Shown piece by piece: positions 9,218 to 60,742 of a DNA stretch of 64,000 nt. A program made the translations under genes and the position numbers. The notes below the pieces were generated by a model. The model was given only the letters and a program-made list of their open reading frames with translations, was not told the DNA's origin and ran no database searches. Where the stretch lies: positions 19,374,932-19,438,931 of the forward strand of contig OZ020254.1 in the NCBI GenBank assembly GCA_963971285.1. The letters are read 5' to 3'. Every line of letters starts with the position of its first letter. Within the stretch, counting starts at the first letter, position 1. This stretch comes from Astropecten irregularis. Its lineage: Eukaryota > Echinodermata > Asteroidea > Paxillosida > Astropectinidae.

Positions 9218-9223
9218 TTTATT
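9218..9223 (-). terminator. Candidate polyadenylation signal of the IGFBP-Kazal-Ig gene
   Basis: AATAAA on the minus strand, about 53 nt past the TAA stop. It would give a short 3' UTR. Position and exact hexamer match are seen; use is inferred. Confidence 0.45.
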
Positions 9224-9275
9224 GTAAAATAGTAACTCTGTATGCCACGGTTCTTGGCAAACTTTACAAAATGAC

Positions 9276-27820: not shown

Positions 27821-28032
27821 GTTTGACAACCAACTTGCCGCAGCCTGATCTCAAATCATGCCAAGACCCCAGATACCAGCAAGGCAACCAGTCATCGGGC
27901 TGTCTGTCAGGAGAAGACAGTCACCAGCCACCCAGCCAGTGAGAGTGTGATTGTCCAACTAGCCAGCCTCTAAGGAAGCAGTCATCTAGCCATTCAGCCA
28001 GCCAAGAAGATGCCACACTTGGATTGGGACAG
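27821..28032 (+). other. Splice-flanked cassette, left copy 2
   Basis: Acceptor CTTATCATAG|GTTTGACAAC and donor GGGACAG|GTACG bound 212 nt. The reverse complement at 63761-63973 is 213 nt with the same boundaries and near-identical sequence. All three frames carry stops, so it is not a coding exon as it stands. Confidence 0.6.
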
Positions 28033-28330: not shown

Positions 28331-28690
28331 GTCTATTTTAAAGGTGACTCGGACTCAGACTCGACCTGGATGACTCGGGACTTGGACTTGAGAGATGTGA
28401 CTCAGACTCGGACTCAGATGTGATATTTTATGACTCAAATACAAGTCAGCTAACTACTATGAAGTATCAGTTTCCTGTTTCATTCAATGGGTTTTTATTG
28501 ATGAACTAACTGCATGTTATTTTATGTACATGTTAAATCTGGTAAACTGTGGATGCTGCTCTGTGACATTCACAAATCATGTGCTAAACAAACAATTGAA
28601 ATGAATTTGTATTTGTTATGGATGTTAATAGTCATATCAGTGCGTGTTAAATGGTTAACCAATCTCTCTCTATTTCTATTATTGTATTAG

Positions 28691-28775
28691 GTGATCTTGT
28701 CAAGGCATTCTACCAATGAGATGTCACCCATTCCAGTGATGTTGCCTGTCCAGTACTAGATGGAGTCATCATAAA
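28691..28775 (+). other. 85-nt exon-like block in the left arm
   Basis: ATTGTATTAG| acceptor and ATAAA|GTAAAT donor bound 85 nt. It differs at about one position from 50072-50156 in the other arm, which has the same boundaries. One frame is open for 23 codons (VILSRHSTNEMSPIPV...) before a stop. Confidence 0.5.
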
Positions 28776-28929
28776 GTAAATTGAATTATTTTATTTATTA
28801 TTGTGCATTAGACTTGTACTTCTATATGTTACCAAGAATTCATTCAGCTTTAAACATTAATGTCAGATGTCAATGTAGGTGGTAAATCTCAGCAGGATTA
28901 CTCATGAAAATGTGCAGCCATCAGGCTCC

Positions 28930-29190
28930 TCTGGTGGGATTTGAACCAGAGACCAACCAAAAACCTGTGAGAGAAAAAACCCAAAGCTACAATTCTGTGA
29001 TCAAGAATGTGTAGCATTGCTGAAGGACAATTACTTTGCTGTGAATGTGACATAAGGATTTCAACACTGATACAGTTCCTCTGGTGGGATTTGAACCAGA
29101 AAACTTTAGGTTAATGCTCTGATTACCTGAGAAACTTAAGTAAAAACTCAATCCACATTGGTGCCTCTGGTGGGATTTGAACCAGACACC
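28930..29190 (-). repeat. B-box (T-arm) repeats, left arm, three units
   Basis: CTCTGGTTCAAATCCCACCAG-type hairpins at about 28936, 29082 and 29161 carry the GGTTCAAATCC B-box consensus. At least six counterparts lie in the right arm. No complete tRNA fold surrounds them. Confidence 0.75.
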
Positions 29191-29469
29191 CTTTAACTGA
29201 AAAACTATGAAATGAACCTTACCTTATGAACCTAGCTAACCAAGTGGGCTTTGGTTTACCTCCATACATTGACATTTGACATCTAGTTTTGTTTACTTCA
29301 TTGATGTACATGTATAATTGTATAAACCATTGCAACATTGATCCATACATTTATATTTTTTGCCGGCTGTACTGAAGAAACACTCAATGCTATGACAGCT
29401 GAATGTTTGTGTTAATCATTGCTGAACAAGGAAAGGATTATTCATTGCGGTAATTACAGTTAAGGAAAA

Positions 29470-29839
29470 TGGTGATTGATGTCACGCGATGTCGTGTTGC
29501 TGGTAGCGACGTTTCGGCTGCTGGAACTGCTACATCCCCGGATTCCGGCTTCCCACCATCCGGCACCTTGACCACTGCAACGCCACAGATGGAACCACCG
29601 AAGCCACACCGAGGACACACCGAGGACACGCCCCCGACCACCCACGGAGAGAAGCATGCGACGCCCACCAGAGTGACACGTTCGACGTCCGAAGTACACT
29701 ACAGTGAGCATGAGGGACTGACCAACAGGATACAACGGACACCGCAGCATCCAGTTCTTCAGTTGCCTGATGAAGGCTAGCAGTTCCAGCAGCCGAAACG
29801 TCACTACCAGCAACACGACATCGCGTGACATCGATCACC
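29470..29839. mobile_element. Foldback element with a GCCGAAACGTC core, left arm
   Basis: GTGATTGATGTCACGCGATG at the left and CATCGCGTGACATCGATCAC at the right give arms of about 70-100 bases. Both arms include GTGTTGCTGGTAGCGACG and its complement. The GC-rich centre is unrelated between arms. Its counterpart lies at 49001-49305. Confidence 0.85.
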
Positions 29840-31974
29840 TATCACCTTATTGCTGAACAAGTTCGCTTTTGCAATTTATCTGAAAAATTTCAAATTCTTG
29901 CCTGAGATGGCCATGATATGAAGAGGAAGATAATTTGTAAATTTGGTCTTTCTTGATCCAAAACTATGTATGCATACAAACAAATACCTACAACTCTTTT
30001 TTTGTGAATCTTGTCAAATGCAGTGTAAAGTGGTCATGTGCATTGTGTGTTTCTGACAGCTAGCAAGGGTTTATGTCAAAGTTGGGATGGATTCATGATA
30101 TTTTAGCTTTTTTTTAAGTCTCCAAATTATAACACTGCCTTGGTGGCAAATCAATTTCAATTCTGTATTGTGTGTCACACCTTGTGCCCCTCTAACAAAA
30201 ACAATTTCCCCTGGGTGGGAACTGTTTATCGGATTTACTTTTCCCCTGGTTGGGGCAACTTTCCACAATGATCAGGCTTTTCCTCTGAAACATTCTAAAT
30301 GTGGCATCTGTGAATACCAAATTCTGCCATCAAATTATATCATGCTGCTGCGCCATCAATTTTTCACCCATTCCTCTTTCCTCTTTTCCTTCACAAATGG
30401 ATCCATCCCTTCTCATTGTAAAAGGTTCTAAAACTTGCATAGTGGTTCAGGATTTGATATCACATTTAGACATGTAGAAAATATCCATTTTTATTTCCCT
30501 TTCTTGCATGAATTTCTTTGAGAGCTATTTTAGAAAGCTTTTTTTCCCATTTGATCTCCATTTCTAAAACATCAATTCTAGTCATTTTTGGAATTGTTCT
30601 GAAATGTCAGCATCATTTTAATCTTCATGGACATAATACATGTAATTAAACAGTATTGAGTCCATATGTTTTCACTCACAATCCTTTCTACATATTTCGC
30701 ATAAATTTCTCATCCTCTGCACAATCTCAGACTCTTACCAGTTGTACCCCTGGGTGGGACTTGAAAACAAACCTTTTTATGGCAAAATTCTATCTCCACT
30801 TTATGTTTAAATGTGATTCACAATCCTGAACCATATCTTTTTCTAGAATCTTAAGTATTAAATTTGTAAATGTTTTAGGGTTCATTCATTTGAAGTGACA
30901 GGGGTTGTAGTTGTACGTGTCTTATGTCCAAAATTTGGGTTTGACAAAAGTTTCAAATTTATACTTTTCAAATTCTTTTTAAATTATACCAGTATTCATA
31001 TGTCATTTTTGGGGTTGAGGTCCAAATTATTTATCACATTTTTATTAAATTGGGGGTTTCATTTGTTCTTTTTAAATTCTGGAATTATTTTTTTTCACTT
31101 AATTCGGTCATTTTGTGTACATATTTATCCCATTTTTATTCAATTCGTGGGTTGAAAGTTTTTTTTCTTCTCTGTTTTTTTGTTTTTTTTGGGGGGCGGG
31201 GGTTTGGCAATTTTTTCCCCCTAAAATTCTTGTCCACACTTGATGAACAACTCCATCATTTCAAATGAATGCACTCTTAAGTTATATTTTTTTGCCTTTT
31301 TCTTAAAAATGTATTCCTTGTGTCGGTATGTGAGTTTCTCCAACAGACAGATTGATCATGCGCCGCTAACTCGGCTAAGCAACAATAACAAACTAAAAGA
31401 AAAATGCATGAATATTCATGCAGAAGCACTGGAAAAGCTGCGAATATTTGCTCGTGTTGCTCTCTAAATACCAATGTTTCCTACAAAATTGTGTGCCAAA
31501 TCTTTTGAACTGTGTGTCTTAAAATTCAAAACGTTTTTAAAACACCATGACAAAATTTTCTATAATGTTCTCTTTAAACAGTCAGGCACGAAAAAGCAAC
31601 CTTTTCATCAAGATAGTACAAAACCTTTCTTGCAGATGCACTGAAAAAAAGCATATAATTTGTGCATGTTTCACACTCAATACTATTATTTCCTACAAAT
31701 TCCTTGAACTGTGTGTATCTTAAAATTCAAAACTTTGTCAAAACATCATGACGATTGATGCAAACAAAATCTAAAATGATCTTTTCAAAACTACAAACGC
31801 CAAAAGCAATTTTTCATCAGGACAGAACAAAACCTGTCTTGTCTAAAATGTTCTTCCCATGTAGATTGACACACTGTATGTTAATGAGCTGATATCAACT
31901 CTGTTTGTTGGAGTAATTCTCATACTGTTATTTCAAACTGTTCTAATCTGTTGTTAAAGTGTTTAAATCCTGTA

Positions 31975-32630
31975 CAGATCAAATACACATAGGAAAGAAG
32001 CTCAGACGAGCATGTGAGTGCCGGTTGGTGCGTTCCTCTGCTGTCTATAGGATGTGGAGCAACTTTAATGACCCGGGTGCATTGGTTGATATGCGTCAGC
32101 TTGAGTGAAACCTGTCTTCAGTGTTGCTGGTATTCTACTCTGTAAGTGTTCTGCCTCACATGATTTGACAAGCTCATACCCAAATTCTGCTTGCGGCAAA
32201 AACTAGAAGAAAGGAATTGATTGTTGTACACTAAGATGCTGATAGCGCTTGTATGATTGGTGCGAAGGACAGAGGACCCTTTTTTCGCACAGTTTTTTTC
32301 GCACTGATACTTTTGTTATCCTAAGTTGGTACCCTTCATCTTACTGTTCCTGTGTAACCAGGTCTCTTTTTAGGCCGGTCATGATGACCAACCCTTTTGC
32401 ATAGGACATCTGCTTCTGATCTGAGGGGGCTCTTGACCTGATAGATGATGGTGACCTCTACTCAGTTGTTGATGTGATGATTAGAGAAACAGTTTTTTGG
32501 CATCGCTGGTTTACTTTGTTACAGTTCTCAGGTTTTGACCATTGGTTTCACTTGTGTAGTAGAAATTAGGGTTGTGTAGGAAGGCAAGAGGGACCACTTA
32601 AAATATTTAGCAAGCTGTAGTGCTGTGATA
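31975..32630. repeat. Most conserved block of the palindrome, left copy; outer member of a nested inverted pair
   Basis: Nearly identical to the reverse complement of 46450-47130. Part of it (31975-32225 and about 32540-32570) is also a diverged reverse complement of 35335-35610 and about 34940-34970 within the same arm. Protein-level similarity to the inner copy is visible (GILL, then SA.H, then TSS). Confidence 0.75.
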
Positions 32631-33740
32631 AAAATTATAAAAACATTTCCTTAGTGCAGTAACTGTTAAAATTAAATCTTGCTAAGAAGACCACAGTAAT
32701 TTATCCAAAGAACAGAAATAAAAATAAATCTGAAATAACCTTTAAATAACCATAGCAAGTTCCTTTCATATTAACTTCATTTCTCCCTAAAAAATACTGA
32801 CAAAGTCAGTACAATAATTGAGATTGAAAACATAGGCCCCTACAAATCTAAATAAAAACATATCAAAGAATAATCATAGTAACAATAATGGAATAATTTG
32901 GAACAAACCAATATGAGGGCATTTTCAGAAGCCCCAAAAGCTTGTATAGATATGACCTTTGATAAAAACACACAGACAATCCATGTTGAGCAGAATCCTG
33001 AAACAATGATAGGAATTGAACTTAGCAAAGGTTCATTAATTCAACCGAAATACTAGTTGTAAAAAACTTTTAGGAACAAAACCAATATTTTCTGAAGTCA
33101 TATAATTCTTGGACAAACCAATGCAGATGATTTAGCAACATATAAACAAATAACAAACAAATAATAATACAACATTCAAGTTAAAGAAAGATACATTAAC
33201 TTCAAACTAAGTATTAGTTATGAAATAATAATTCAATTCTTATAAGGCAGGCTAAAAACGAGAAAGATTTCTACCTTCAAAAAAATCACTGAACAATTTC
33301 CAGTAATATCATAAATAATCTTTAAGGACATGCATCAAGGCTGCGTGTAACCAGGGATCTTCTCAACATTTTGACTAGTATGCGACATTTTTTATCTAAA
33401 GATTAATTTATTCACGCAGATCTAGAATAAATCAGTAAATCACTTTAAAAATATGCTACCAGTACCATAGGAAACCTTGATAATCGAGACTAGAGAATGC
33501 AATAGGTTTAGGATTCCTAAACCTATGGTATAAACCATCTATCTACATTAGGAGTCAATTCACTTTAGTTCAGTTTAATCCACATAGGTCAACATATTGA
33601 CAAAGTCAGTACAGTTATTGAGATGAAAATCAGACAAGATCTAAATGAAAGTTCCAATAGGCCTGTATCAAAATGGTCGTTGACAAAAACATGCCGACGA
33701 TCCATGTTACAACAGAAACAAATAATAACTAGACAATTAA

Positions 33741-33766
33741 GTGTTCGTCCCGTGGACGAACACTAA
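33741..33766. repeat. AGTGTTCGTCC hairpin at the left secondary axis
   Basis: AGTGTTCGTCC and its complement surround a 3-base loop. It lies midway between the two members of the nested inverted pair in the left arm. The same hairpin sits at 45293-45318 in the right arm. Confidence 0.85.
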
Positions 33767-34194
33767 GCTGTTCCGATTTTGTTTCAATTGAATCATTAGG
33801 CTGATACTAGAGAATTGTCTATTTCCGTAAGCACCGATTCTACACTTAGAGTAAGCAGTGCCCTTCAGACGATGTTTTCTACACATTGTATTTCCTATTT
33901 CAATGCATATTTGCATCTGTAGCTATGGTTACAAAACCGACGTACAATGACATTTTTTCCTCAGTATCTGATGATGTCATAATGACTTCATCATTTAATA
34001 GGTAGATTATTTGTAACACAGAGAATATACACACTCTTTTCTATTGCAAAAAAAATAGAGCGCTAACAAATTAATGAACTAATTAAGTATTCAAATGACT
34101 GTCACGTGACTAAATAATAGATTAACAAACAAAAGCAGTTTTCAACACAAATTATTTACCTCATAAGCTTTCATATGATTTACCTTTTGAGCTT

Positions 34195-34559
34195 TTAAAG
34201 GTAGCATCATACTTTGGTAAGAAACTAAAACAGAAATGTTCACAGATTTACGTATTACTTTCAGGTTATGAAGACGGTGCTGGTAGAAACCTACCGTTAA
34301 AATTGTTCTCCCTGTAACGGTGTATTTATCCAGAAATTAGTAAAACAACGACCGGAAATCTTTTTGAACTTTTAAAAGAAAAAAAAGAAAAGAGAAAAGA
34401 CTTAAGAAATACTGTGGCCGTTTTTCACGATTTTCTCAAAAAGTGGGCACCGCATGGGACTGAAATTTTCACAGATAACTGTTACTGTATCTTCCTTGAT
34501 ATTTTTGCCCATGAATATGTACTTCTTTGACAAAAACCAAAGTATGAAAATACCTTTAA
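34195..34559. mobile_element. TTAA-type MITE inserted in the left palindrome arm only
   Basis: Full copy with TTAAAGGTAGCATCATACTT and AGTATGAAAATACCTTTAA ends. At the matching place in the right arm (about 44755-44770) a single TTAA remains between the same flanks, an empty site. Confidence 0.88.
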
Positions 34560-35180
34560 AATAAAGAAAAAGAAGTTGAATACAGTTTATTAAAATAAAA
34601 ATCACAACATAAAAGCTAGGGAAGCTTGATAAAGAATAATGAAAATAAAATAAAATAATAATAACAAACACTGTTCTGCCCTGGAATACGTTAGAACAGC
34701 TAAAAATGTTAGTACCAGAGTAAAGTTATTAAGATATTACCGTAGGAAATACTGGTAACATTCTTCTTCTATGGAAGAAGGGCGATAATTAATAATCACA
34801 AATAAAAATAACAAAAATAATCTCAATCTATTTAAAACCTGTTCCGCCCTGGAACACGTCGGAACAACCCAAATAAACTTTTAGCACCAGGATGGTTAAA
34901 AGAAAAGGCATTTAGGTATTAGCTTAGAAAATACTGGTAGCATTCTTCTTCTACACAAGTGAAACCAAGAAATCCATGAGGACATGATTGTTTCATTACT
35001 GCGCCTATGAATACATGTTTTTTCATGGGGTAATTTGTAATTCAGAATACATAAACTATCAAATTTGGGGGCAAAAACGTTAATCCAAAATTTGAAGTAA
35101 GCTGCATGTTGAAATTTTGTTTCTCTGGTCAGCACATCATCATCTGGGCTGAAGTTGTTATTATTTTGAAGGTCAAGGAC

Positions 35181-35513
35181 TCAATTAGTGATGGAGTGGA
35201 AGTGTCCAAATGAATCGGTCTTTATTTTTGCTTTTTTGCCACCAAAGTTCACCACAAAAATGTCTTCCAAGAACATATAGCGGCCTGGTTGCCCGAACAG
35301 GGGGTGAAGTCTGAAGTACACCCATGCAGGTCTATTAAGATTTAAGTGTACAACAATGAATCCTTTCTGAGCTTTGTTCAGGCCTTTGTTAGTCTTTTCA
35401 ATGCGCGGCATTTGCATGCCAACAAAAGCCTGCATAGGCAATGAGCTTGTTGAAATGTGTGTTGCAGAATGCCTATGGAGCAGAATACCAGACACACTAA
35501 GTCTGGTTTCAAC
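35181..35513 (-). CDS. Unrecognised reading frame in the left arm, conserved in both arms
   Basis: An open frame of 110 codons before its stop, with no clear ATG at the front (first ATG-like starts are internal), so it could be an exon. It reads GILLHRHSATHISTSS, then AFVGMQMPRIEK, then GFIVVHLNLNRPAWVYF, then LFGQPGRYMFLEDI. The right-arm counterpart (43951-44244) is open over the same stretch with only a handful of residue changes. The diverged outer sub-repeat keeps the GILL, SA.H and TSS positions. I recognise no family. It points outward from the palindrome centre. Real coding status is unproven. Confidence 0.4.
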   Translation of the reverse strand, partial: VETRLSVSGILLHRHSATHISTSSLPMQAFVGMQMPRIEKTNKGLNKAQKGFIVVHLNLNRPAWVYFRLHPLFGQPGRYMFLEDIFVVNFGGKKAKIKTDSFGHFHSITN

Positions 35514-35929
35514 TCAAGAGGGCGCTTTATCAGCCGATGTGCTTGGGTCATTAAGTTGCTTCATGTTCTGGACAGCAGAGGGCGCACCAGCCGGCACTTG
35601 CAATTAAAAAAAAAAATAATAAAAAAAATAATTGACACAATAGACAGTGATCTCTTTTTGCATTTTTATTTTGTCAATACTTAAACTACCCCCTCTATTT
35701 ACAAATAAGGGACTACATTGCAAACAGCATCTCTGAAAAATGGACAACAGTAAGAGGGCGCTATTTGAGCAGACTTTATCCTGCATCAACAGCGCCCTCT
35801 CACTATGGACCATTTACAAAGATGCTTATTGAAACAGTTCCAACAATACAAACTTCTGGCAATTTCCATGTGACCTCCATACACATTAACCTGGCACTGC
35901 ACAGAGGTCATATGTAAATTACCTAAAGG

Positions 35930-36118
35930 TTGTATGACTGGGACACATTTCAACTTGCAATGCAGACCCTTTGCAAAGATGCCATTTTAAACCTTATCTA
36001 TGACCTTGTTTATCTTATTACAGCGCAAGCAATGCAACAAAAATATAAAGGTTTTAGACTTGTACGAATGAGAGAACTTGCGAATAGTAGAACAGATGCA
36101 AAGAATATTGACTTTTGA
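35930..36118 (+). CDS. Unrecognised small reading frame in the left arm
   Basis: 62 codons starting YDWDTFQLAMQTLCKDAI. The right-arm counterpart (43328-43498, minus) is 56 codons with four replacements and a clean 18-nt in-frame length difference. A TTATTACAG site inside it could act as an acceptor, so it may be two pieces. Directed toward the palindrome centre. No homolog recognised. Confidence 0.35.
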   Translation: MYDWDTFQLAMQTLCKDAILNLIYDLVYLITAQAMQQKYKGFRLVRMRELANSRTDAKNIDF

Positions 36119-36530
36119 ATGTTGACGCGCATACCAAAGTTTCTTTCTTTGTACATGTATTCCTTTTTGTATTTGCAGGAAAGTGCTTTTGTTTGTAACA
36201 CGATGATTCTAATGTGAACGAACAAAGTCAAGCAATACGTAATTCTGATGTTACTTTTGAATGTTGACGCGCATATCAAAGTTTCTTTCTTTGTATTCCT
36301 TTTTGTATTTGCAGGAAAGTGCTTTTGTTTGTAACACGATGATTCTAATGTGAACGAACAAAGTCAAGCAATACGCAATTCTGATGTTACTTTTGAATGT
36401 TGACGCGCATATCAAAGTTTCTTTTTTTGTATTCCTTTTTGTATTTGCAGGAAAAGTGCTTTTGTATGCAACACGATGATTCTAATGGGGACGAACAAAG
36501 TCAAGCAATACGCAATTCTGATGTTGGAGC
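36110..36530. repeat. About 134-bp tandem repeat, left arm, about three units
   Basis: Units begin near 36119, 36253 and 36397 with TGTTGACGCGCAT and include TTTTTGTATTTGCAGGAAA and ATGATTCTAATG. The right arm has four units (42790-43345). Confidence 0.88.
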
Positions 36531-39179
36531 GCAGACAATTTGGAAAGGTCACAGAATAATGAATGAAACAGCACCCTTGAAACCAATAGTAACCTGTTAC
36601 CTTAATCGAGTCAGATTCAAATTATTGCTTGAGAATTTGGTTTTCTTTTATGCTGAACCAAAACGAATAACGCACAATTGAAAATGAAAAATGTATCAGT
36701 AACTAAGAAGTTCTGAAGAAGCAGGCTAGTCGTAGTCGAAACATTGAGACCTTACGAGAACTGGGAATGAAACAGAAGTGTGAAAGTACAAACGATTTTT
36801 ACATGGTGTTTCCGCAAACCAATCCACATAACTAAGAAGTTTATTTTTGGAGTTATTTTGTTTTCTGTCAAGCCCAATCAAATAATTCATTGTAATTATG
36901 ACATTTCAGATTGATTGCAAAATGCATTAAAATTCAGGTCAAAATTTCTGGTTGGAAAAGGAATTTCAAACAATGATATTTCCAAAGAAACTTTCAGATG
37001 CAGGATTTTGCTTTAAAAAAAAAGCACTGGGCATGGACGTATTAAAACCAGAAATTGTAAAATGCCAAGAGAGGTTGTCAATTTTAGCACAGGTAATATT
37101 TGAACTCGCTTTGTACCGACTCAGTTTATGGTAACAGGTTACATGTACCTATGGTTAACCACTTAAGGTATGGTGACAATTTGCCAGCTGAGAACTTGAC
37201 TCCCAGTTAAATTTAGAAAAAACAATTTGATATTGAAAAATATGCGTTTGCATTTGATGATTGTTTTGCAAATTGTAATGCCTGCTTTTTGCCAACTGTT
37301 GACCTCAGTTTTGCCAACTACATGTATTTCTTGTAGAAAACATCTTCTTTTTTCCCTTTTAGATTGATCACATATTTTGCTTGGCATAATCAAAATTGCC
37401 TCAATTTAATCACAATGCACTATCTTGAGTTTGAAATGTAGAGAATAAATTCAAGTTTTGTGGCGCATTTAACCCCAATGAAAGCTACAAGAGTCAAGTA
37501 CAACAACTGGCATAATTGTAACCATACACAAGAAAAAATGACTGGTATCTTGTCCATCTTGCGCAATCCAAAAAGCAAAATGGAAATTTGTGCTTAATTT
37601 GAGAAATGTGCTCGATTCAACAATTGCAGCCAAAAGTGTTGAACAATTAATCACGACTATTTCATCCAAACTTAAGTAGAAAACAATACCAAGAAAACTA
37701 TCTGCAGCAGTTTTGAACGTGAACCAGATACCATTGTTTTTTCTTGAACCATACTATCCGTGCTCTTCACTAAATTTAGTTCCCTTTAAACAAAATAAAG
37801 TTGTAAAGTTTGTTGCTCTTTCTAAAGAAACTTTACATTAAATAAGTCTTCCATATATAGGTCGTAAAACTCTCACTTAGATGGTTTGAGAAGTAAACAA
37901 TCTCATGGTAATTTGAGGATGGCTCATGAACTACTTGATCAATTGCTATTTGTAGGTCAATTGTTCGATGTCCTATGTGAAAAACGTCAGTGATTATGAA
38001 ATGCTACACATCAATAATTTCATGTTGTTATTCATTGTTAGGAGTGACATTCAAAAGAGCACGGATAGTTTGTAATTTAGGTCAAATAAAGCACACAACA
38101 AATGAGTGCACCAGGCACTCGTTTATTTCATTATCTTCATTTACAAAACTTATCAGGAGTTTCACAGCGAGTCATGCACTGAGTCTAAAAAGTTCACATG
38201 TGCAAGTTCCAAATCTGTCAGCATCGGTGTATTTTCAAGTACGCAGTTTATGCACATTTAATTTGTACGCTGTATCGTTATTTGGAAAGTTGAGTCTATT
38301 CTTGAGTGACGTTTCTTCATCGTCCTTCCCGTAATTACTTCAGGAGTCATTTAAGATTTGATCATTTGTGATACTAATTTCTCAGAAGGCAAATGTTCGG
38401 ATTTTGAGGTCAGAATTTCAAATTGTTAAACTGCAGTTGAAGCATGTTAAAGTGGTAGAGATGTTGAAAGCAATCACATAGTGTAGGTCCGTCCACCTCC
38501 GACTTAGAAAGGCTCCCATCAAATACAGCAAGGTCATCTTGGAAAAACAGCATAGATCTGCATTCTCTACGTCTTCTCAGATCTGAAAATATTAAAGATG
38601 GCAATGAATTAAATATCAGAAGATTGTGTTCTATTAAATCACATTATTTTGGGGTTAATTCTTGCAGCCAGAACAGTTTGAAGACAATAAAAGAATGGAA
38701 ATGGCAAAAAAAAACGATCATGTTTTGTAATTATTGTGTAATTTTCCCCCTGTCATTCCAGTTAAGTTACATGTTTTGGTCCCAAATATGTTTCACAGGA
38801 ATCCCCCTTTTATTTGGAGTGGTATCGTCCATGTATAAGACCATTTTTTATTATAACTTGTAATAAGATACAATTGTGACATATCCTTGTAAGCAAATTA
38901 CCAAATTCTATTTTTCAGAAGGTAGGAAACTTACCCTTTTGGTTACTTCTGTTGAAACCAAGCCATGCCAAAAGCTTAATTCCCCTCTGAAAAAGAAACA
39001 ATCTGGTATTGTATTAATTTTGGGGGATAAAATTTCGGCGATTTCTTCTCAGGAATATTACACGTCTTTCCTCGGCGGACACTTGGCGCGAAATGACGCC
39101 AATTATTTGAAAGATGCACAAATCAATGCAAAACCATTCAGAATCACTGGTGCGTGGCTTAAATAGCGCCCTCTATACT

Positions 39180-40066
39180 TGTGTTTAAAGCCAAAACAAA
39201 GCCTTTTAGACTAGTCTCTTTTCAAGTCTCTTTTTCCCGGGGCGCTGCCTAAAAGACCGTAGATTGCGGTAATTTTTGCTGCCCCGGGGGAATCTGGACT
39301 TGAAACAAGACTAGCAAACGTTTAACAACTCTGTGACTAGTCTTTTTTCAAGTCGGTACCACCCCGGACGTCCCTAAAAAGACCGTACTTTGCGGTCTAT
39401 TTCATCACGCTCGGGACAGTAAAGACTTGAAAAGAGACTAGACATAGTTAGTTGGTAGTTGGTCTCTTTTCAAGTCTTTATTATTCTAAGCGTCGTGAAA
39501 CGGAGGGAAAATTACGTTTACTTTCGTACCATAATAAAATTGAGAATGGAGATACTTTAAATATACTAATAACGTCTATTTACATTTAAAAACGACTTTT
39601 AAAGCATGGTTTGTGTCATAGGGACTTAAAATTGGACAAGAAACACTTCTCCGATGTCTAGTCTTGTTTCAAGCAGGCACTATCTCGAGCGCGGCTAAAA
39701 AGACCGTACTTTGCGGTCCATTTCACGACATTTGGAATATTTAAGACCTGAAAAGAGACTAGCTACTAAATAACCAAAACGAACACATGGTCGGTGTTAG
39801 TCTTGTTTCAAGTACAAACTTTCGCGGGCGCGGCTAAAAAGACCGTACTTTGCGGTCCATTTCACCACGCCCAGAATAGTTCAGACTTGAAAAGAGACTA
39901 ACTACCAACTAACTGCTGCTAGTCTTTTTTCAAGTCTTTATCTTTCCGGGCGCGGTGAAATAGACCGCAAAGTACGGTCTTTTTACTCGCGCCCGAGATA
40001 GTACCGACTTGAAACAAGACTAGCAACAGAGTGACGTAGCTCCAGGCCTATTGTCTTTTGCCTGAA
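39180..40066. repeat. Central hairpin array at the main axis of the palindrome
   Basis: Five to six units, each about 105-130 bases, bounded by CTAGTCTTTTTTCAAGTC-like and GACTTGAAAAGAGACTAG ends. Each unit has a mirrored core GACCGTACTTTGCGGTC at about 39256, 39383, 39704, 39840 and (inverted) 39965. GC-rich spacers such as GCGCGGCTAAAAA are shared. The array is bounded by AGCGCCCTCTA on the left and TAGAGGGCGCT on the right, where the arms begin. The third unit is worn (39451-39650). Confidence 0.88.
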
Positions 40067-40261
40067 ACAATAGATAGAGGGCGCTGTTTTATTTAATGCC
40101 CCAGCGATTCTGAATGGATTTTAGAGCATGATGGGAATAATGCTTTGTTCAAATCAAGACGCGCCATTTCACGCCTGCGTTCCGTCGAGGTAACACGATG
40201 TCTACTCCACGGGAGAAATCACATCAATTTCTTCATCCGTGTTTTCACAAACCCCAATAAA

Positions 40262-40334
40262 ATGGAAGGTTCCCGCCATATTGAGAAAGCTCTTGACTTG
40301 ATTTGTCTTTTAAGAAACTCTGAAGGCCCAAAGG
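40262..40334 (+). CDS. Candidate first coding exon close to the palindrome centre
   Basis: ATG in AAAATGG context, then MEGSRHIEKALDLICLLRNS and a donor CAAAGG|GTAGGT. The equivalent left-arm position on the minus strand also has a donor, AAAAGG|GTAAGT (exon about 38986-38935), but a diverged reading frame. Both point outward from the central array. No downstream partner exon was established. Confidence 0.3.
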
Positions 40335-41162
40335 GTAGGTTTTATTACTCTCCTGACCAAATTATTATATTTTTGCCGAGAGCCGCGGCAAAATACTTGT
40401 GTAATTTAAGGGTGCGGCACCATGCCGTTTTTTGAGGCTCAAAATATTACCAAATGATAATGTTAATAACGTTAAATTGGTAGAGGACTGAATTATATTT
40501 TCTTATAAAACACAATACGAACCACAAAGATGTTAAGGGAATGAAACAATAACGCCACAAAATTGAAGGCAATGTCTTTGGTAATTTTTTCAACAGGATA
40601 TTCTTTATTGTCTGAGAAACAGCTCAGATTTCCGGCTTCATATACATACTCCTGCCTAAAATTACATACAAATATGAAACCATTTGGAAAAGAAAAATAT
40701 TTTCATAGGTGACCCTCTCAGTCTTAATGGTGGTCCGTTCCTAAAAGTTACAGAAGCCATCTGAAATATAATGCATTTTGAAAATGAAATCTTACAAAAA
40801 AAATTACGAAAACACACGACTCGTTTGAGACGTTGACCTATCATTAGCAAAGTGATGGTCATCTGTGGAACTATTCCACTCTTTAAGAACATGAGAACTA
40901 CCAGGTTTTTAACAATTAAAAAAAAAAGAGTGCCTAGTATTTCAATTACCAATCACAGAAGGTTTGTTCTCGGCATTGCGGAGGATTCTCAGAATGTGCA
41001 TTCTGCTCAAATTAATTTCCATTTCAAAGAAACATACTTATTATTTGTGGTCTCATTCCATCATTTTGTTGTTTTTTTCTTGTTCAGATCTTTAAAAGCC
41101 TGAGACGATTTTGCTTTGACGTTTGAAGACACAAGAGATGACCTCCGTGTAAATCTACCTGA

Positions 41163-41408
41163 ATGACATCAGAAGTGAAGTGTCGGCATGTGTTTGAACA
41201 TCTCCAAGATGAACATATACAACCTATTCATTTGTGGAAAAATGGAGCCTTCAACTTGATTCAAGAAATAATTATGCCTCCATCTGAACCAGAGACTCCT
41301 ACCTTGGAAGAAACTTTACAATGCAATATGCAACTTCAAGGACTGAATTTGGAAAACTGTGTTTCACAGTTAGATGGACTCGTTAACAGTTATTGTACAT
41401 TGAAGTGA
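41163..41408 (+). CDS. Unrecognised reading frame, right inner arm
   Basis: 81 codons with HVFEHLQDEHIQPIHLWKNG and ENCVSQLDGLVNSYC. A polypyrimidine tract and TTGTTCAG lie about 65 bases upstream. The left counterpart (38604-38410, minus) encodes a diverged C-terminus (LFFQDDLAVFDGSLS, FQHLYHFNMLQLQ). The two are similar in place more than in sequence. No family recognised. Confidence 0.3.
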   Translation: MTSEVKCRHVFEHLQDEHIQPIHLWKNGAFNLIQEIIMPPSEPETPTLEETLQCNMQLQGLNLENCVSQLDGLVNSYCTLK

Positions 41409-42789
41409 TTAAAGATATGAGTGCCTGGTGCACTCATTTGTTGTGTGCATTATTTGAACCAAAATAATTCTGCTATCTGGTCATATTCACTTTCGAATAG
41501 CTGCGGCAAAGAATTTTAAGCAAAGTGTTCTTTTTGAAAATTTCCTTTCAACTGTGTGCCTTTTTTGCTTTTAAATTTGTCAACAATACAAATATTCTTG
41601 TCACTAACAAAATGGACCTGAAGTACTTATAGTTTTCATTGATGAGTATCAAATGCAAACAGTTATTGAATTCTATGCAAATCTGTTACAATCTAAAATT
41701 AGATTGATTCATATGCATGTACCAAACTTACAAATTGAGCAGTAATGAAGTATTAGAAATGCGCGTTATTGACCAGATTCCAGTCTTTTTTTGGCATTGC
41801 ATTGAAACGATGTGAATGGTTGGTAATTTTGCCAGTTGATATCCTTGACCTTGTTACCTATTTTTTCAAGCAATGATTTTGCTGTCCCAATAAATGAATA
41901 TTAAGTGAAATGTTTTTTCTTGAAAGATTTTACAGAAAAAGATGGTTTATAAGAAAGGGGTTTTCTCTTTTAAATTGTCCCATTGTACGTTTGACGTACT
42001 GAACAAAATCATTTTTTGTTAACGAAGGCTGTAGATTGTACATCTCCAAGTCACAAATTCGACAGTTGATTCTGAGATGGTTTTGTGTCAAATACTGCAA
42101 CATTGTTCAGCAACTTTTCAGCTGCATATAAAAGTGATTTTCATGAAATAAGGATATTTGGGGTAATTTTGGAATAAAAAAAAAACCTCTTCAATGATTA
42201 ACAAGAGTTAAGTTATCAGCTGGCAAATTATCACCATACTTTAAGTGGTTAACAATAGGTACATGTAACCTGTTACCATAAACTGAGTCAGTAAGCCATT
42301 AGTACCTGTGCTCAAATTTACAAGCTCTCTTGACATTTTTTACTTTCTGATGTTAATATGTCAATGCCCAGTGCTTTTTTTTAAGCAAAAACCTGCATCT
42401 GAAAGTTTCTTTGGAAATATCATTGTTTGAAATTCCTTTTTCAACCAGAAATTTTGACCTCATCCCATTTTTTTCGAAAATTGTAAACACCTGCATCTGA
42501 AACTGTTTTCCTAACATCAGTTGTTTGTTCTGCAAATACTTTACCAGCCAGGAATTTTTACACGACTTTTTATATGTTGCAGCGCTCAAAAAACCAAAAT
42601 GTTTTCTCCAAAAATAATGTCTAAGTTGCTGATGTCTTTTTCATTTTGAACTGCACATTATCATATTGGTTTAGCGTAAAAAAAACACACAAAATTTTGA
42701 AGCGACGATCTGACTCATTTAAGGTAGCAGGCTACTTACTACTGGTTTCAAGGGTGCCGTTTCGTAGGTTATTAATGTGACCTTTCCAA

Positions 42790-43345
42790 ATTGTCTGCGC
42801 TCCAACATCAGAATTGCGTATTGCTTGACTTTGTTCGTCCACATTAGAATCATCGTATTGCACCCAAAAGCATTTTTCTGCAAATACAAAAAGGAATACA
42901 AAGAAAGAAACTTTGATATGCGCGACAACATTCAAAAGTAACATCAGAATTGCGTATTGCTTGACTTTGTTCGTTCACATTAGAATCATCGTATTGCATA
43001 CAAAAGCACTTTCCTGCAAATACAAAGAAAGAAACTTTGATATGCGCGTCAACATTCAAAAGTAACATCAGAATTGTGTATTCCTTGACTTTGTTCGTTC
43101 ACATTAGAATCATCGTGTTACACCCAAAAGCACTTTCCTGCAAATACAAAAAGGAATACAAAGAAAGAAATTTTGATATGCGCGTCAACATTCAAAAGTA
43201 ACATCAGAATTGCGTATTGCTTGACTTTGTTCGTTCACATTAGAATCATCGTGTTACACCCAAAAGCACTTTCCTGCAAATACAAAAAGGAATACAAAGA
43301 AAGAAACTTTGATATGCGCGTCAACATTCAAAAGTCAATATTCCT
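42790..43345. repeat. About 134-bp tandem repeat, right arm, four units
   Basis: Reverse complement of the array at 36110-36530, with one more unit. Confidence 0.88.
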
Positions 43346-43950
43346 TGCATCTGTTCTATTTCGTACAAGCCTTAAACCTTCATATTTCTGTTGCATTGCT
43401 TGCGCTGTAATAAGAAAAACAAGGTCATAGATAAGGTTTAAAATGGCATCTTTGCAAAGGGTCTGCATTGCAAGTTGAAATGTGTCCCAGTCATACAACC
43501 TTTAGGTAATTTACATATGACCTCTGTGCAGTGTCAGGTTAATATGTATGGAGGTCACATGGAAATTGCCAGAAGTTTGTATTGTTGGAACTGTTTCAAT
43601 AAGCATCTTTGAAAATGGTCCATAGTGAGAGGGCGCTGTTGATGCAGGATAAAGTCTGCTGAAATAGCGCCCTCTTACTGTTGTCCATTTTTCAGAGATG
43701 CTGTTTGCAATGTAGTCCCTTTAAAACCAGTTAAGTGTACTCTTGGTTAACCACACATATTTGTACATAGAGGGGGTAGTTTAAGTATTGACAAAATAAA
43801 AACGCAAAAAGAGATCACTGTCTATTGTGTCAATTATTTTTTTTATTATTTTTTTTTTAATTGCAAGTGCCGGCTGGTGCGCCCTCTGCTGTCCAGAACA
43901 TGAAGCAACTTAATGACCCAAGCACATCGGCTGATAAAGCGCCCTCTTGA

Positions 43951-44244
43951 GTTGAAACCAGACTTAGTGTTCCTGGTATTCTGCTCCATAGGCGTTCTGC
44001 AACACACATTTCAACAAGCTCATTGCCTATGCAGGCTTTTGTTGGCATGCAAATGCCGCGCATTGAAAAGACTAGCAAAGGCCTGAACAAAGCTCAGAAA
44101 GGATTCATTGTTGTACACTTAAATCTTAATAGACCTGCATGGGTGTACTTCAGACTTCACCCCCTGTTCGGGCAACCAGGCCGCTATATGTTCTTGGAAG
44201 ACATTTCGGTGGTGAACTTTGGTGGCAGAAAAAGGCAAAAATAA
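43951..44244 (+). CDS. Right-arm counterpart of the 35181-35513 frame
   Basis: 97 codons reading LSVPGILLHRRSATHISTSS to LFGQPGRYMFLEDISVV. Its end differs from the left copy, so the two products would not be the same length. Coding status uncertain. Confidence 0.4.
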   Translation, partial: VETRLSVPGILLHRRSATHISTSSLPMQAFVGMQMPRIEKTSKGLNKAQKGFIVVHLNLNRPAWVYFRLHPLFGQPGRYMFLEDISVVNFGGRKRQK

Positions 44245-45292
44245 AGACCGATTCATTTGGACACTTCCACTCCATCACTAATTGAGTCCTTGACCTTCAA
44301 AATGACAACAACTTCAGCCCAGATGATGATGTGCTGACCAGAGAAACAAAATTTCAACATGCAGCTTACTTCAAATTTTGGATTAATGTTTTTGCCCCCA
44401 ATTTTGATAGTTTATGTATTCCGAATCGCAAATTACCCACTGACTGAAAAAACATGAACTCATGCGCAGCTATGAGACAATCATGTCCTCATGGATTTCT
44501 TGGTTTCACTTGTGTAATAGAAGAATGCTACCAGTATTGTCTACAATAACCTGTTAATTTTATAGCTTAATTCAACTTTTAACCATCCTGGTGCTAACAT
44601 TTTATTGGCTGTTCCGACGTGTTCCAGGGCGGAACAGGTTTTAAATAGCCTGAGATTATTTTTTTATTTTTTTTTATTATTCTTTATCACCCTTCCCTAG
44701 CTTTTATGTTGTGGTTTTTGTTTTAATACTACACTTCTTATTCTTAGCTTTATTTTTAAAGCTCAAAAGGTAAATCATATGAAAGATTATGAGGCAAATT
44801 CGCATTAAAAACTTATCTAATTTGATCATTTATTTTTTAAGAACATGGGATAATTAGTCAATTATGAGCCCTATTCTTCATCTGCAATAGTACTGCTACA
44901 TCTTGTAGATATGACATCATCATGATGTCATCAAAAAGACAATTTTCATTTTACCCCCGGAATAATGGTGGGTATGATATCTGTGTTACATATAATCTAC
45001 CTATTTAATGATGAAATCATATGACATCATCAGATTTTGCGTTATGTATTTACATTTTTTATTCCTTCGTTCTTTTTCTTTAGCATTCAACCTGTTAAAA
45101 TTATGTCAAAACTGTTTGATATTTTCAGTGATGATTTTGCTATACAGAATGGAAGAAAAAGTACTCTTAAAAGATGAAATTTAGGCTTTAAACCCCAATA
45201 TTTTTGTAACCATAGCTACGGATACAACTGAAGCTACAGAACTTTTTTTTAAATCGGCCTAATGAGCAAATTAAAACAAAATCGGAACAGCT

Positions 45293-45318
45293 TAGTGTTC
45301 GTCCACGGGACGAACACT
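45293..45318. repeat. AGTGTTCGTCC hairpin at the right secondary axis
   Basis: Same hairpin as at 33741, mirrored. Confidence 0.85.
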
Positions 45319-46449
45319 TAAATGTCTAGTTATTATTTGTTTCAGTTGCAACATAGATCATCTATGTTCTTTTTAGTCAATGGCCATTTCTATAACTATT
45401 GTTTTATTCCTATTTCTTTTGTTTGTCACAGTGATGCGACTGATTTTTATGTGTTTTTTATTTTTATTTAGATTTTGCTTGTTTTTAATCTCAATAATTA
45501 TACTGACTTTATCAATATGTATACTTATGAGGAAATAAATACTGAAGTGAACTATTAAAAGTGAATTGACTCCTAATGTAGATAGATGGTTTATACCATA
45601 GGTTTAGGAATCCTAAACCTATTGCATTCTCTAGTCTCGATTATCAAGGTATCCTATGGTACTGGTAGCATATTTGTTAAAGTGATTTACTGATTTATTC
45701 TAGATCTGCGTGAATAAATTAATCTTGGTGCATACTAGTCAAAATGTTGAGAAGACCACTGGTTATATAAAGCCTTGATGCATGTCCTTAAAGATTATTT
45801 ACATGACATTACTGAAGATAGTTGAGGGATTCTTCTTTTTTGTTTTAAGGTGGAAATCTTTCTTGTATTCCAGAATTGAATTATTTTAAATCGGTATTAC
45901 ACAACTAATATTTAGGTAGAAGTTAATGCATCTTTCTTTCAATTAAATTCTGTTATTATCTTTATTTCTTTTTGTTGCAACATCATCTGCAAAATTTTTG
46001 CCATTTATATTGGGGCTTCTGAAAATACCCCCATATTGGTTTGTTCCTAATTATTTTGTTATCTAAAATCGCTATTACACAATTAATGTATTGAAGTTAA
46101 CGTAACTTTCTTATGTTTAACTTCTATTAAGTTGTTACTGTTGCAATGTGGATCATTTATAAATGTCTTTGTAAAAAGACATTTCTTTGCAAGCCTTTGG
46201 GCCTTCTGAAAATGCCCCATATTGGTTTGTTTCTAATTTTCTGATGATTCTTTATATGTTTTCATTTAGTGTTTTTAATCTGAATAATTGTACTGCCTTT
46301 GCCAGCATTTTTAGGGTCAAGTTAATAATGAGATTACTTGCTATGGTTATTCTATGGTTATTTTAGCCTCTATCTTCATTTCTGTGGATTTATTGTTGCT
46401 TAAATTACTGTGGTCTTCTTAGCAAGATCGAATATTTGTTACTGCACTA

Positions 46450-47130
46450 AGAAAATAATTTTATAATTTTTATCACAGCACTACAGCTTGCTAAATATTT
46501 TAAGTGGTCCCTCTTGCCTTCCTACACAACCCTAATTTCTACTACACAAGTGAAACCAATTGTCAAAACCTGAGAACTGTAATAAAGTAAACCAGCAATG
46601 CCAAAAAACTGTTTCTCTAATCATCACATCAACAACTGAGTAGAGGTCACCATCATCTATCAGGTCAAGAGCCCCCTCAGATCAGAAGCAGATGTCCTAT
46701 GCAAAAGAGTTGGTCATCATGACCGGCCTAAAAAGAGACCTGGTTACACAGGAACAGTAAGATGAAGGGTACCAACTTAGGATAACAAAAGTATCAGTGC
46801 GAAAAAAACTGTGCGAAAAAAGGGTCCTCTGTCCTTCGCACCAATCATACAAGCGCTATCAGCATCTTAGTGTACAACAATCAATTCCTTTCTTCTAGTT
46901 TTTGCCACAAGCAAAATTTGGGTATGAGCTTGTCAAATCATGTGAGGCAGAACACTTACAGAGTAGAATACCAGCAACACTGAAGACAGGTTTCACTCAA
47001 GCTGACGCATATCAACCAATGCACCCGGATCATTAAAGTTGCTCCACATCCTATAGACAGCAGAGGAACGCACCAACCGGCACTCACATGCTCGTCTGAG
47101 CTTCTTTCCTATGTGTATTTGATCTGTACA
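46450..47130. repeat. Most conserved block of the palindrome, right copy
   Basis: Reads almost without change against the reverse complement of 31975-32630, including GCACCAATCATACAAGCGCT and AAGAGTTGGTCATCATGACC. Confidence 0.8.
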
Positions 47131-49000
47131 GGATTTAAACACTTTTAACAGCAGATTAGAACAGTTTGAAATAACAGTATGAGAATTACTCCAACAAACA
47201 GAGTTGATATCAGCTCCTTAACATGTGTCAATCTTCATTGGAAGAACATTTCAGACAAGACAGGTTTTGTTCTGTCCTGATTAAAATGAAAAATTGCTTT
47301 TGGCGTCTGTAGTTTTGGAAAGAACATATTACTTTTTTTTGGCATAAATCAATTTTGTCATGTTTTTGAAAACCTTTCAAATTTTAAGATACACAAAGTT
47401 AGATTTGGGACAAATTTTTGTAGAAAATTATAGTATTTTGTGTGAAATATGCAAATATTTGCATGTTTTTTTCAGTGCTTCTGCATGAATTTTCATGCAT
47501 TTTCTTGTACGAGTATATACAAATTTAGTTTGTTATTGTTGCTTAGCGGCACATGATCAATCTGTCTGTTGGAAAAACTCACATACCGACATACAGAAAA
47601 CATTTTAAAGAAAAAGGCAATGAAATGTAACTTTAGAGTGCATTCATTTGAAATGATGGAATTGTTCATAAGGTCTTTAAAATAATTTTTGGGAAAAAAT
47701 CCCCTCCCCCCCCCGAAAAAAAAAAAAAAAAAACATGAAAAGGAAAAAAAAAGAACAACCCCAAAATATGAATACTAGTATAATTTAAAAAGAATTTGAA
47801 AAGTATAAATTTGAAACATTTGTCATACCCACATTTTGGACATCAGACACGTACAACTACAACCCCTGTCACTTCAAATGAATGAACCCTAAAACATTTA
47901 CAAATTTAATACTTAAGATTCTAGAAAAAGATATGGTTCAGGATTGTGAATCACATTTAAACATAAAGTGGAGATTTTTTGCCATTTTTGCCATAATGAA
48001 TTTTGCCATAAAAAGGTTTGTTTCAAGTCCCACCCAGGGGTACAACTGGTAAGAGTCTGAGATTGTGCAGAGGATGAGAAATTCATGCAAAATATGTAGA
48101 AAGGATTGTGAGTGAAAAAATATGGACTCAATACTGTTTAATTACATGTATTATGTCCATGAAGAGGAAAATGATGCTGACATTTCAAAACAATTCCAAA
48201 AATGACTAGAATTGATGTTTTAAAAATGGAGATCAAAAATGGGGAAAACAAATCTAAAATAGCTCTCAAAGAAATTCATGCAAAAAAGGGAAATAAAAAT
48301 GGATATTTTCTACACGTCTAAATGTGATACCAAATCCTGAACCACTATGCAAGTTTTAGAACCTTTTACAATGAGAAGGGATGGATCCATTTGTGAAGGA
48401 AAAGAGGAAAGTGAAATGGGTGAAAAATTGATGGCGCAGCAGCATGATAAAATTTGATGGCAGAATTTGGGATTCACAGATGCCACATTAAGAATGTTTC
48501 AGAGGAAAAGCCTGATCATTGTGGAAAGTTGCGTCAACCTGCTCAACCAGGGGAAAAGGGACTAACATGAGCAAAAATACAAAGTAGCAAGTGGACCTGA
48601 TAAACAGTTCCCACCCAGGGGAAATTGTTTTTGTTTTACATGGACACAAGGTGTGACACACAATACAGAATTGAAATTGATTTGCCACCAAGGCAGTGTT
48701 ACAATTTGGGGACTAAAAAAAGCTAAAATATCATGAATCCATCCCAACTTTGACATAAACCCTTGCTAGCTGTCAGAAACACACAATGCACATGACCACT
48801 TTACACTGCATTTGACGAAATTCACAAGTTTAAGAGTTGTTGGCATTTGTTTGTATGCATAAAACCTGTACATAGTTTTGGATCAAGAAAGACCAAATCT
48901 ACAAATGATTTTCTGCTTCATATCATGGCCATCTCAGGCAAGAATTTGATTGTTTTTTTACATAAATTGCAAAAGCCAACTTGTTCAGCAATAAGGAAAT

Positions 49001-49305
49001 AGGTGATCGATGTCACGCGATGTCGTGTTGCTGATAGCGACGTTTCGGCTGCTGGAACTGCTAGCCTTCATCAGGCAACTGAAGAACTGGATGCTGTGGT
49101 GTCTGTTATATCCTGTTGGTCCGCGTCCCTCGTCCGGGTGCGTGTCCTCGGCATGGCTTCTGTGTGCTTCGGTGGTTCTGTCAGTGGCGTTGCGGTGGTC
49201 ATGTTGCCGGATGGCGGGAAGCCGGAATCCGGGGATGAAGCAGTTCCAGCAGCCGAAACGTCGCTACCAGCAACACGACATCGCGTGACATCGATCACCT
49301 TTTAC
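49001..49305. mobile_element. Foldback element with a GCCGAAACGTC core, right arm
   Basis: GGTGATCGATGTCACGCGAT to ATCGCGTGACATCGATCACC. Counterpart of 29470-29839 with a shorter centre. Confidence 0.85.
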
Positions 49306-49549
49306 CTTAATTACCGCGACAAATAATGCTTTCCATGTTCAGCAATGATAAACATGAACATTCAGCTGTCATAGCATTGAGTGTTTCTCCAGTACAACAA
49401 GCAAAAAATACAAATGTACGATACAATAAATTACACTAATGAAGTAAAGAAAATTAGATGTCAATGTATGGAGGTAAACCAAAGCCCACTTGGTTAGCTA
49501 GGTTCATAAGATAAGGTTCATTTTATAGTTTTTCTGTTTTCAAGTTAAG

Positions 49550-50480
49550 GGGTGTCTGGTTCAAATCCCACCAGGGGCACCATGTGGATCTGCCATCATT
49601 CACCACAATCACTCAATTGTCTTTGATCACCTAAACTCTCACCTATGAGCATAAACAGGGTCTCTGGTTCAAATCCCACCAGAGGCACCAATGTGCATTG
49701 GGTTTTTACTTGATGAAACGGGTTTCTTTGATAATCCGACCTTAAGTTTCTGGTTCAAATCCCACCAGAGGAACTACATCAGTGTTGAAATCCTTATGTC
49801 AAAGTAATTGTTTTTCAGCAATGCCATGCAGTCTTGATCACAGAATTGTAGCTTTGCTTGTTTCTCTCACAGGTATCTAGTTGGTCTCTGGTTCAAATCC
49901 CACCAGAGAAGCCTGATAGCTGCAAGTTTGTATGAGTAATCCTGCTGAGATTTACCACCTACATTGACATTCGACATTAATGTTTAAAGCTGAATGGATT
50001 CTTGGTTACATAGATGTACAATTCTAATGCACAAATATTATAGTAATAATAGATAAAATAATTCAATTTACTTTATGATGACTCCTTCTAGTACTGGACA
50101 GGCAACATCACTGGAATGGGTGACATCTCATTGGTAGAATGCCTTGACAAGATCACCTAATACAGTCAAAGAAACATAATTTGGTAAATAATTTTACATA
50201 AACTGACTAAATCCATATCAAATATATATAAAACTCACACTTAAACAATTTTGACATGTACATGAAATAATAACATTTAGTTAATTTATCAATGAAAACG
50301 TATTCAATGATAGGAAACAGATACTTCATGGTCTTTCAGTGAGAGGTTCAGTCCCACCAGAGGCAACATGTGGATTCTGATATCCTACACTATAATCACA
50401 CAAGTGTTTTTAATAACCTAAGCTTTGACCTGTTAGCATAAAGAGGGTCCTTGGTTCAACTCCCACCCGGGGCACAATGT
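49550..50480 (+). repeat. B-box (T-arm) repeats, right arm, six units
   Basis: GGTTCAAATCCCACCAGAGG or close variants at about 49554, 49671, 49750, 49887, 50345 and 50452, spaced about 80-460 bases. The left arm retains three. Confidence 0.75.
50072..50156 (-). other. 85-nt exon-like block in the right arm
   Basis: Mirror of 28691-28775 with the same candidate acceptor (ATTAG|) and donor (|GTAAAT). The most strictly kept short block of the outer arms. Confidence 0.5.
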
Positions 50481-50539
50481 GGATTGAGTTCTCTACTTGA
50501 TCATACGTTTCTTATATTTCAGGCAGATATATTTGAATG

Positions 50540-60682: not shown

Positions 60683-60742
60683 CTACATGCAACAATTTAA
60701 TTAAAATCGAATTTAAAAAACATAACTTATTTTCAACTGAAA

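Follow-up and report, generated by a model that had tools for sequence, protein, structure and literature searches.

A family of large palindromes in terminal regions of four contigs of Astropecten irregularis, possibly composed of convergent noncoding gene pairs

Large inverted repeats have been described in several genomic settings. In outline, the ampliconic palindromes of the mammalian X and Y chromosomes occur several to a region, have mirrored arms of several kilobases with protein-coding genes in both, undergo arm-to-arm conversion and are >99% identical between arms. Foldback transposons such as FB, Tetris, Galileo and TU, the last being a transposon of the sea urchin, an echinoderm, are long inverted repeats with outer tandem repeats; they are further marked by sharp termini with target-site duplications, a transposase in some copy and dispersal over the genome. 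Endogenous small interfering RNA (siRNA) hairpin loci are inverted repeats able to give a fold-back transcript, with small RNAs, and multicopy noncoding families such as the small nuclear RNA (snRNA) genes consist of many constrained noncoding copies. Literature searches, judged by titles and abstract openings, brought up no palindromes in echinoderms like those described here. We analyzed 64,000 nucleotides of Astropecten irregularis DNA (GenBank assembly GCA_963971285.1, contig OZ020254.1, here C18, positions 19,374,932 to 19,438,931), referred to below as the window, from an assembly of 475.7 Mb in 168 contigs. The window contains a large palindrome that belongs to a family clustered near contig ends. 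On balance we favor, at roughly even confidence, the reading that each palindrome comprises one spliced noncoding RNA gene of about 11 kb in two convergent mirror copies.

The family resembles each of the known systems in part. Like the X/Y palindromes, in the outline given above, it has large inverted repeats with mirrored arms of several kilobases, several to a region, with signs of arm-to-arm conversion; genes are proposed in both arms here as well, but noncoding ones. In contrast to the >99% identity of the X/Y arms, identity is 76 to 91% along the chain of matches in the window and 92 to 96% in the main blocks of another copy, f. No protein-coding gene was found in the 12 frames searched or as codon periodicity in the right arm, and, unlike in the X/Y case, the same palindrome recurs 31 times near the ends of several contigs. 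The long inverted repeats and outer tandem repeats are shared with foldback transposons. What sets the family apart from them is a span of about 23 to 26 kb between outermost mirrored blocks, constrained internal blocks and a confinement of all arms found (68 of 68) to four terminal regions without genome-wide dispersal. Because the family lacks >99% arm identity and coding genes on the one hand and genome-wide dispersal on the other, we file it neither as a sex-chromosome palindrome nor as a foldback transposon. Unlike siRNA hairpin loci, it has an exon-shaped block, an inward polyadenylation signal and hybrid members with partly unalignable arms. Unlike snRNA-type families, it is long, apparently spliced and mirror-paired, and no Rfam family matched the element at its gathering score. 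By analogy, it may work like a multicopy noncoding gene housed in ampliconic-style palindromes.

Self-comparison of the window yielded a collinear chain of inverted matches. The left arm (28,673-37,202) matched the right arm (42,205-50,174) in inverted orientation, with 7,202 left-arm bases chained at a mean identity of 85.0%. The best inverted match scored 2,519 bits, as opposed to 31 to 37.4 bits per shuffle in 10 Markov shuffles. The seven main matches paired 28,673-29,192 with 49,657-50,174, 29,151-29,636 with 49,135-49,589, 29,712-31,017 with 47,756-49,131, 31,159-31,557 with 47,351-47,750, 31,627-33,805 with 45,253-47,489, 34,777-36,525 with 42,940-44,695, and 36,936-37,202 with 42,205-42,460. 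A preliminary description, made from the sequence without tools, had recognized a 22-kb palindrome here, and the chain confirms it. Its outer limits had been set at 28,450 and 50,345; the mirrored element reaches further, since symmetry extends outward to 27.82-28.03 kb on the left and 51.04-51.26 kb on the right.

The inner left arm, between 37.2 and 39.3 kb, has just three short and weak mirrored matches to the right arm (37,487-37,530, 38,073-38,150 and 39,063-39,316; 65 to 84% identity). Two 1.4-kb probes overlapping this region found approximately full-length matches, at 92 to 94%, in four other palindromes. On the strength of these two observations, positions 37,203-39,330 look like a divergent version of the arm, and we do not see the one transposon mentioned earlier as a private insertion.

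To count related arms, the whole genome was searched with a 40-bp conserved stretch at ≤3 mismatches, a probe that misses arms diverging more within it. It identified 68 arms, with no matches to the reversed control pattern. Sixty-two of these formed 31 inverted minus/plus pairs, 13.9 to 22.9 kb apart, and six were single, all of them on contig C1; both arms were thus retained at 31 of 37 loci. This same-genome search supplied the other copies called for earlier, and the existence of many diverged copies bears out the view that the palindrome is not an artifact of reading through a hairpin. Thirty-six arms lie on C18 (16.74-20.28 Mb of 20.40 Mb), 26 on C1 (0.06-3.48 Mb of 39.04 Mb), four on C15 (21.31-21.43 Mb of 21.66 Mb) and two on C23 (14.98-14.99 Mb of 15.41 Mb), so that every arm found falls within the outermost 3.7 Mb of one of the four contigs. 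We regard the family, its mirror structure and its terminal clustering as established. The preliminary description, made from one stretch without tools, could not see the family and its constrained blocks. Besides the W-type arms there is another kind, F, which was first met in copy f and accounts for 19 arms (14 on C1, 5 on C18); three of the F-type arms on C18 (copies e, j and m) are paired with a W-type arm. Sequences were compared for copies a to f in whole, copy g in most part, one C1 copy and one C23 copy, out of the 37 loci.

Repeats of the TTAGGG type occur in the last kilobase of both C18 and C23, whereas the first kilobase of C1 contains none. Among the first matches listed, a long run of perfect TTAGGG repeats does begin at position 1,262,448 of C1, over a megabase inside the contig start, and may be an interstitial telomere or a join. 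That all arms found are terminal, that C18 and C23 end in repeats of telomere type and that most loci are two-armed would be expected if the palindromes were structural DNA elements at chromosome ends, for instance boundaries, pairing sites or replication origins, with blocks that bind proteins and with selection on the mirror layout and its central inverted-repeat array. The same applies to a centre core exclusive to the palindromes and to B-box-like repeats at their outer edges, both described below. Set against these is the exon shape of the outermost block, D, whose AG and GT borders are conserved and whose flanks diverge. We consider this alternative unlikely, although it deserves to be kept in mind.

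Block D occupies 27,821-28,032 on the left (plus strand, inward; 212 nt, ATAG/GTTTGA ... GGACAG/GTACGT, slashes marking the borders) and 51,035-51,263 on the right (minus strand, inward; 229 nt, CACAG/GTTTGA ... CCACAG/GTAC). It was sought in 20 arms and found in 13, several of the fetched pieces ending before it, and in 13 of 13 it was bordered by AG and GT. In the divergent arms w_L (the left arm in the window) and e_R, the body of D aligns and its flanks do not. D therefore has the shape of an exon. Its variation in length from 187 to 234 nt across copies, and stops that interrupt every frame in each of three translated copies, speak against coding. A genome search for D, in which 40 of 122 candidates were scored, listed 43 matches. 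All 43 lie outside the nearest arm and point inward, and 36 of them are 90 to 100% identical, on C18, C1, C15 and C23; two tandem extras among those listed are 13 to 15 kb, and one is 22 kb, from the nearest arm. Between the two copies of D, palindromes with both ends listed span about 23 to 26 kb. Conserved AG/GT borders and a lack of coding potential are features of spliced long noncoding RNA genes; the former are found in D and, in part, in blocks B and C.

Two blocks within the arms are unusually well conserved. Block C lies at 31,991-32,571 in the left arm (plus strand; C18:19,406,922-19,407,502) and at 46,530-47,150 in the right arm (minus strand), where the exon side of an acceptor-like site begins at 46,727. 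Block B lies at approximately 35,080-36,070 on the left (plus strand, mirrored from the right arm; core 35,434-35,605) and at 43,400-44,390 on the right (minus strand; exon side of an acceptor-like site from 44,333; core 43,859-44,023). Identity to the arms of C1 and C23, measured per 100 bp, is 92 to 99.8% for block C (46.54-47.15 kb), as opposed to 74 to 86% for its neighbors within 400 bp, and 88 to 97% for block B (43.4-44.39 kb), as opposed to 80 to 86% for its outer and 88 to 90% for its inner neighbors. Changes private to one arm were then counted, leaving out the two f arms and the F-type arm e17885_R; i18892_R gave no aligned cells, nor did g18588_L in block C. Block C contained 33 such changes in 10,958 cells (0.0030), 4.5 to 8 times fewer than the rates of five other stretches (0.0135, 0.0156, 0.0192, 0.0229 and 0.0241). 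The counts were 138 in 16,303 cells (0.0085) for block B and 52 in 5,473 cells (0.0095) for the block next to the centre. Single arms thus show reduced private change in these blocks. Among 20 arms examined, the C segment was not found in one and the B string not in three; the inward acceptor-like sequence TCTCTTTT[TC]AG/GCC of block C kept its AG in 18 of the 19 arms in which it was found, with T or C at position -3, and the sequence TCAG/CACATC of block B did so in 16 of 17.

The core of block B (43,859-44,023) is an inverted relative of a core in block C (46,924-47,084), with 75 to 79% identity across copies. Each arm therefore holds what is left of an inverted duplication of earlier date. 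In the genome, all 40 scored matches to the B core (of 67 candidates) were located ≤5 kb from a listed arm. Block B also contains a 140-base hairpin with GAGGGCGC arms (43,582-43,723), whose weak Rfam likeness to MIR4374 scores 32 bits, the gathering score being 105.

At the centre of the window palindrome (39,200-40,030), inverted-repeat units of about 120 bp, delimited by eye, form the array TAGTCT...TTTCAAGTC...GACCGTACTTTGCGGTC...GACTTGAAA...AGACTA. A 20-bp core of this array had 59 matches in the genome at ≤1 mismatch, 56 on C18 and 3 in the C23 palindrome. The 56 on C18 all lie inside palindromes and touch 18 of 18, so that the core was found in these palindromes only. Beside the array, a conserved block at 40,040-40,450 (minus strand) is the proposed last exon of an inward transcript; it contains an inward AATAAA at 40,088-40,093 (minus strand), kept in 19 of 20 arms.

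A repeat-built centre of this kind would also suit a long-hairpin RNA locus, one of the options raised in the preliminary description, in which transcription reads through the centre and the product folds back into double-stranded RNA and gives rise to small RNAs. The inverted identity of the window arms (85% over 7.2 kb) and of the main blocks of copy f (92 to 96%) fits this idea. Conservation, however, is block-wise rather than arm-wide, and an inward AATAAA precedes the centre in 19 of 20 arms. Moreover, copies e, j and m pair W-type with F-type arms, and in copy e, which was fetched whole, the two arms align only in blocks and near the centre. A hairpin locus accordingly has only a slight chance of being the right explanation.

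The inward orientation of D, of the AATAAA and of the acceptor-like sites of blocks C and B agrees instead with convergent spliced noncoding transcripts. In the arrangement that we favor, each transcript would begin beyond its arm or at the arm's outer margin and proceed inward, through exon D and then blocks C and B, as far as the polyadenylation signal next to the central array; the array would thus keep the two 3' ends apart. The palindromes would have been multiplied as wholes in terminal regions of a few chromosomes, probably by segmental duplication, with arms partly homogenized by gene conversion. Transcription and its direction, the splicing of B and C, and polyadenylation are predictions from sequence, and that RNA rather than DNA is the selected product is what we infer. 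The opposite arrangement, outward transcription from a central promoter, was dropped since D and the AATAAA point inward, although splice-like sites occur on both strands.

Several observations weigh against convergent spliced transcripts. A scan for conserved splice-like sites, with assumed site frequencies, found 18 outward and 19 inward; with such similar numbers on the two strands, the scan gives no direction. Strong conserved inward donors were few (four). The left arm in the window is the one arm of 20 without the inward AATAAA, and in copy a the acceptor is altered once at block C and once at block B. Alignments between W-type and F-type arms break in C and B at points that are not clean AG/GT pairs. 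Conservation is not confined to the blocks, as arm windows at 41.8, 42.2, 48.0 and 48.3 kb are also 92 to 95% kept. Block C folded no better than its shuffles on either strand (z of -0.37 and +1.46). Blocks C and B could be DNA elements.

The arms are without coding signal. In the aligned right arm, neither codon periodicity nor a notable open frame through the blocks was found, and a conserved small open reading frame at about 40.26 kb has 12, 12 and 13 variable sites at the three codon positions; the proposed exon there measures 73 nt in most arms, those of C1 and C23 having 74 nt. In agreement with the preliminary description, 12 frames from the arms and centre of the window contained no transposase, viral or other known Pfam domain above the cut-off, two matches below it having E values of 0.07 to 0.08. 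Protein coding was rejected because nothing in its favor came from the substitution phase or the stops in the right arm, from the small open reading frame or from the Pfam search of these frames. At the gathering score, Rfam gave nothing inside the element, with a histone 3' stem-loop and a tRNA elsewhere in the window, and a permissive search (E ≤1) of 39.6-51.0 kb returned four matches, the best of which reached 32 bits where gathering asks for 105. A known RNA family was rejected because these matches fall far below that score.

An undescribed foldback element had been another earlier suggestion, and a giant foldback-type or other nonautonomous transposon would account for whole units at many sites, for arm lineages in either orientation and for long inverted repeats that carry tandem repeats at their ends. 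The outer limits, however, differ among the eight sequences compared and fall in repeats; neither target-site duplications nor sharp termini were recognized, with ends that lie in minisatellites and no dedicated search for duplications. No known domain scored above the cut-off in the 12 arm and centre frames of the window, and the arms detected are confined to four terminal regions. The likeness of copies b and c extends into their flanking DNA, as segmental duplication would produce, and the reduced private change of single arms is unlike the expectation for dead transposon copies. The foldback option is left unsupported, because no defined termini or duplications were recognized and because constraint is seen in single arms; we judge any transposon of this kind quite unlikely.

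The history of the arms was examined in three trees, for the inner, middle and outer arm, with 5 to 7 arms dropped from each, including both f arms and e17885_R in all. In the inner tree, the W-type arms of C18 form two lineages, and every C18 palindrome with both arms in that tree (a, b, c, d and g) has one arm of each, in either orientation. The two arms of the C1 copy, 91 to 93% alike, were sisters in three of three trees, those of C23 in two of three (inner and middle) and those of the window palindrome in the middle tree; the arms of copy d were alike in the outer tree, and in copies a and d the grouping switches along the arms. Because these palindromes have one arm of each lineage and because groupings change, multiplication seems to have involved units that already contained both lineages, with arm-to-arm conversion in patches. 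The earlier suggestion of a duplication kept alike by gene conversion is therefore partly right: the sister arms of C1 and C23 fit it, but palindromes a, b, c, d and g carry two different lineages in the inner tree. Whole palindromes have probably been multiplied within the terminal regions, with segmental duplication as the general route.

The sister arms and the shifting groupings in a and d could also be taken to mean that the palindromes are functionless subtelomeric segmental duplications, whose block conservation stems from repeated gene conversion. Block C, however, is about equally conserved between contigs and within C18. In addition, even the copies that have diverged most (for D, w_L and e_R; for C and B, f and e_R) align in the blocks and not in their flanks, which is not expected from recent conversion. 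We find this explanation most improbable.

If the palindromes are indeed pairs of convergent noncoding genes, some 68 constrained noncoding copies, mostly in mirror pairs close to a few chromosome ends, would make up a large undescribed animal gene family. They would also offer a natural test of how palindromes persist, in which selection on blocks is separable from gene conversion because subfamilies and hybrids keep the layout while most of the arm sequence has diverged. A bolder version, which we hold to be doubtful, is that the mirror layout itself is selected and that the palindromes form a new class of chromosome-end element, two convergent copies of a noncoding RNA gene around a central inverted-repeat array. 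In this version the two-armed state would have persisted across two or more old types of arm and the hybrids between them, possibly because pairing of the arms, or of the two RNAs, acts in chromosome-end behavior.

Repeats accompany the outer ends of the arms. A minisatellite with a 125-bp unit, CCAGCC-rich on the inward strand, adjoins D at 51,611-52,171 (minus strand). The motif GGTTCAAATCCCACCAG is repeated in the outer arm at 49,550-50,484 (unstranded), and the motif GGTTCAAATCCCACCAGAGG near both arm ends, at 49,550-50,484 and about 28,930-29,190. The two resemble a tRNA T-arm or B-box, and the repeats are possible TFIIIC sites. The C1 copy carries the B-box-like motif about nine times in tandem, at a spacing of about 103 bp, within positions 1-1069 of the sequence compared.

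Several features of the surroundings deserve mention. Near the right end of the palindrome, a frame at 57,558-58,442 (within 56,798-60,700, minus strand) encodes a Tudor domain, whose nearest solved relatives are TDRD1 and Tudor. A ten-copy 105-bp minisatellite lies at 61,926-62,979, and sequence from there also flanks copy a. On the other side of the palindrome, a rhodopsin-type receptor gene lies beside a 53-bp tandem array (22,297-23,873), and a gene with Kazal and immunoglobulin domains, which we presume to be akin to IGFBP7, is found at 9,116-11,001 (minus strand). The histone 3' stem-loop match is at 12,844-12,888 (minus strand); no histone was noticed among the listed frames, and none was searched for. 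Elsewhere in the assembly, a search for the GFP family had no match, nor did it in its controls, and a COX1 frame without TGA on C131 is perhaps bacterial. At conserved positions, COX1 on C168 reads AAA as Asn, ATA as Ile, AGA as Ser and TGA as Trp, as in the echinoderm mitochondrial code, which flatworms also use; the COX1 sequence at C25:9,951,047 is probably a nuclear copy of the mitochondrial gene.

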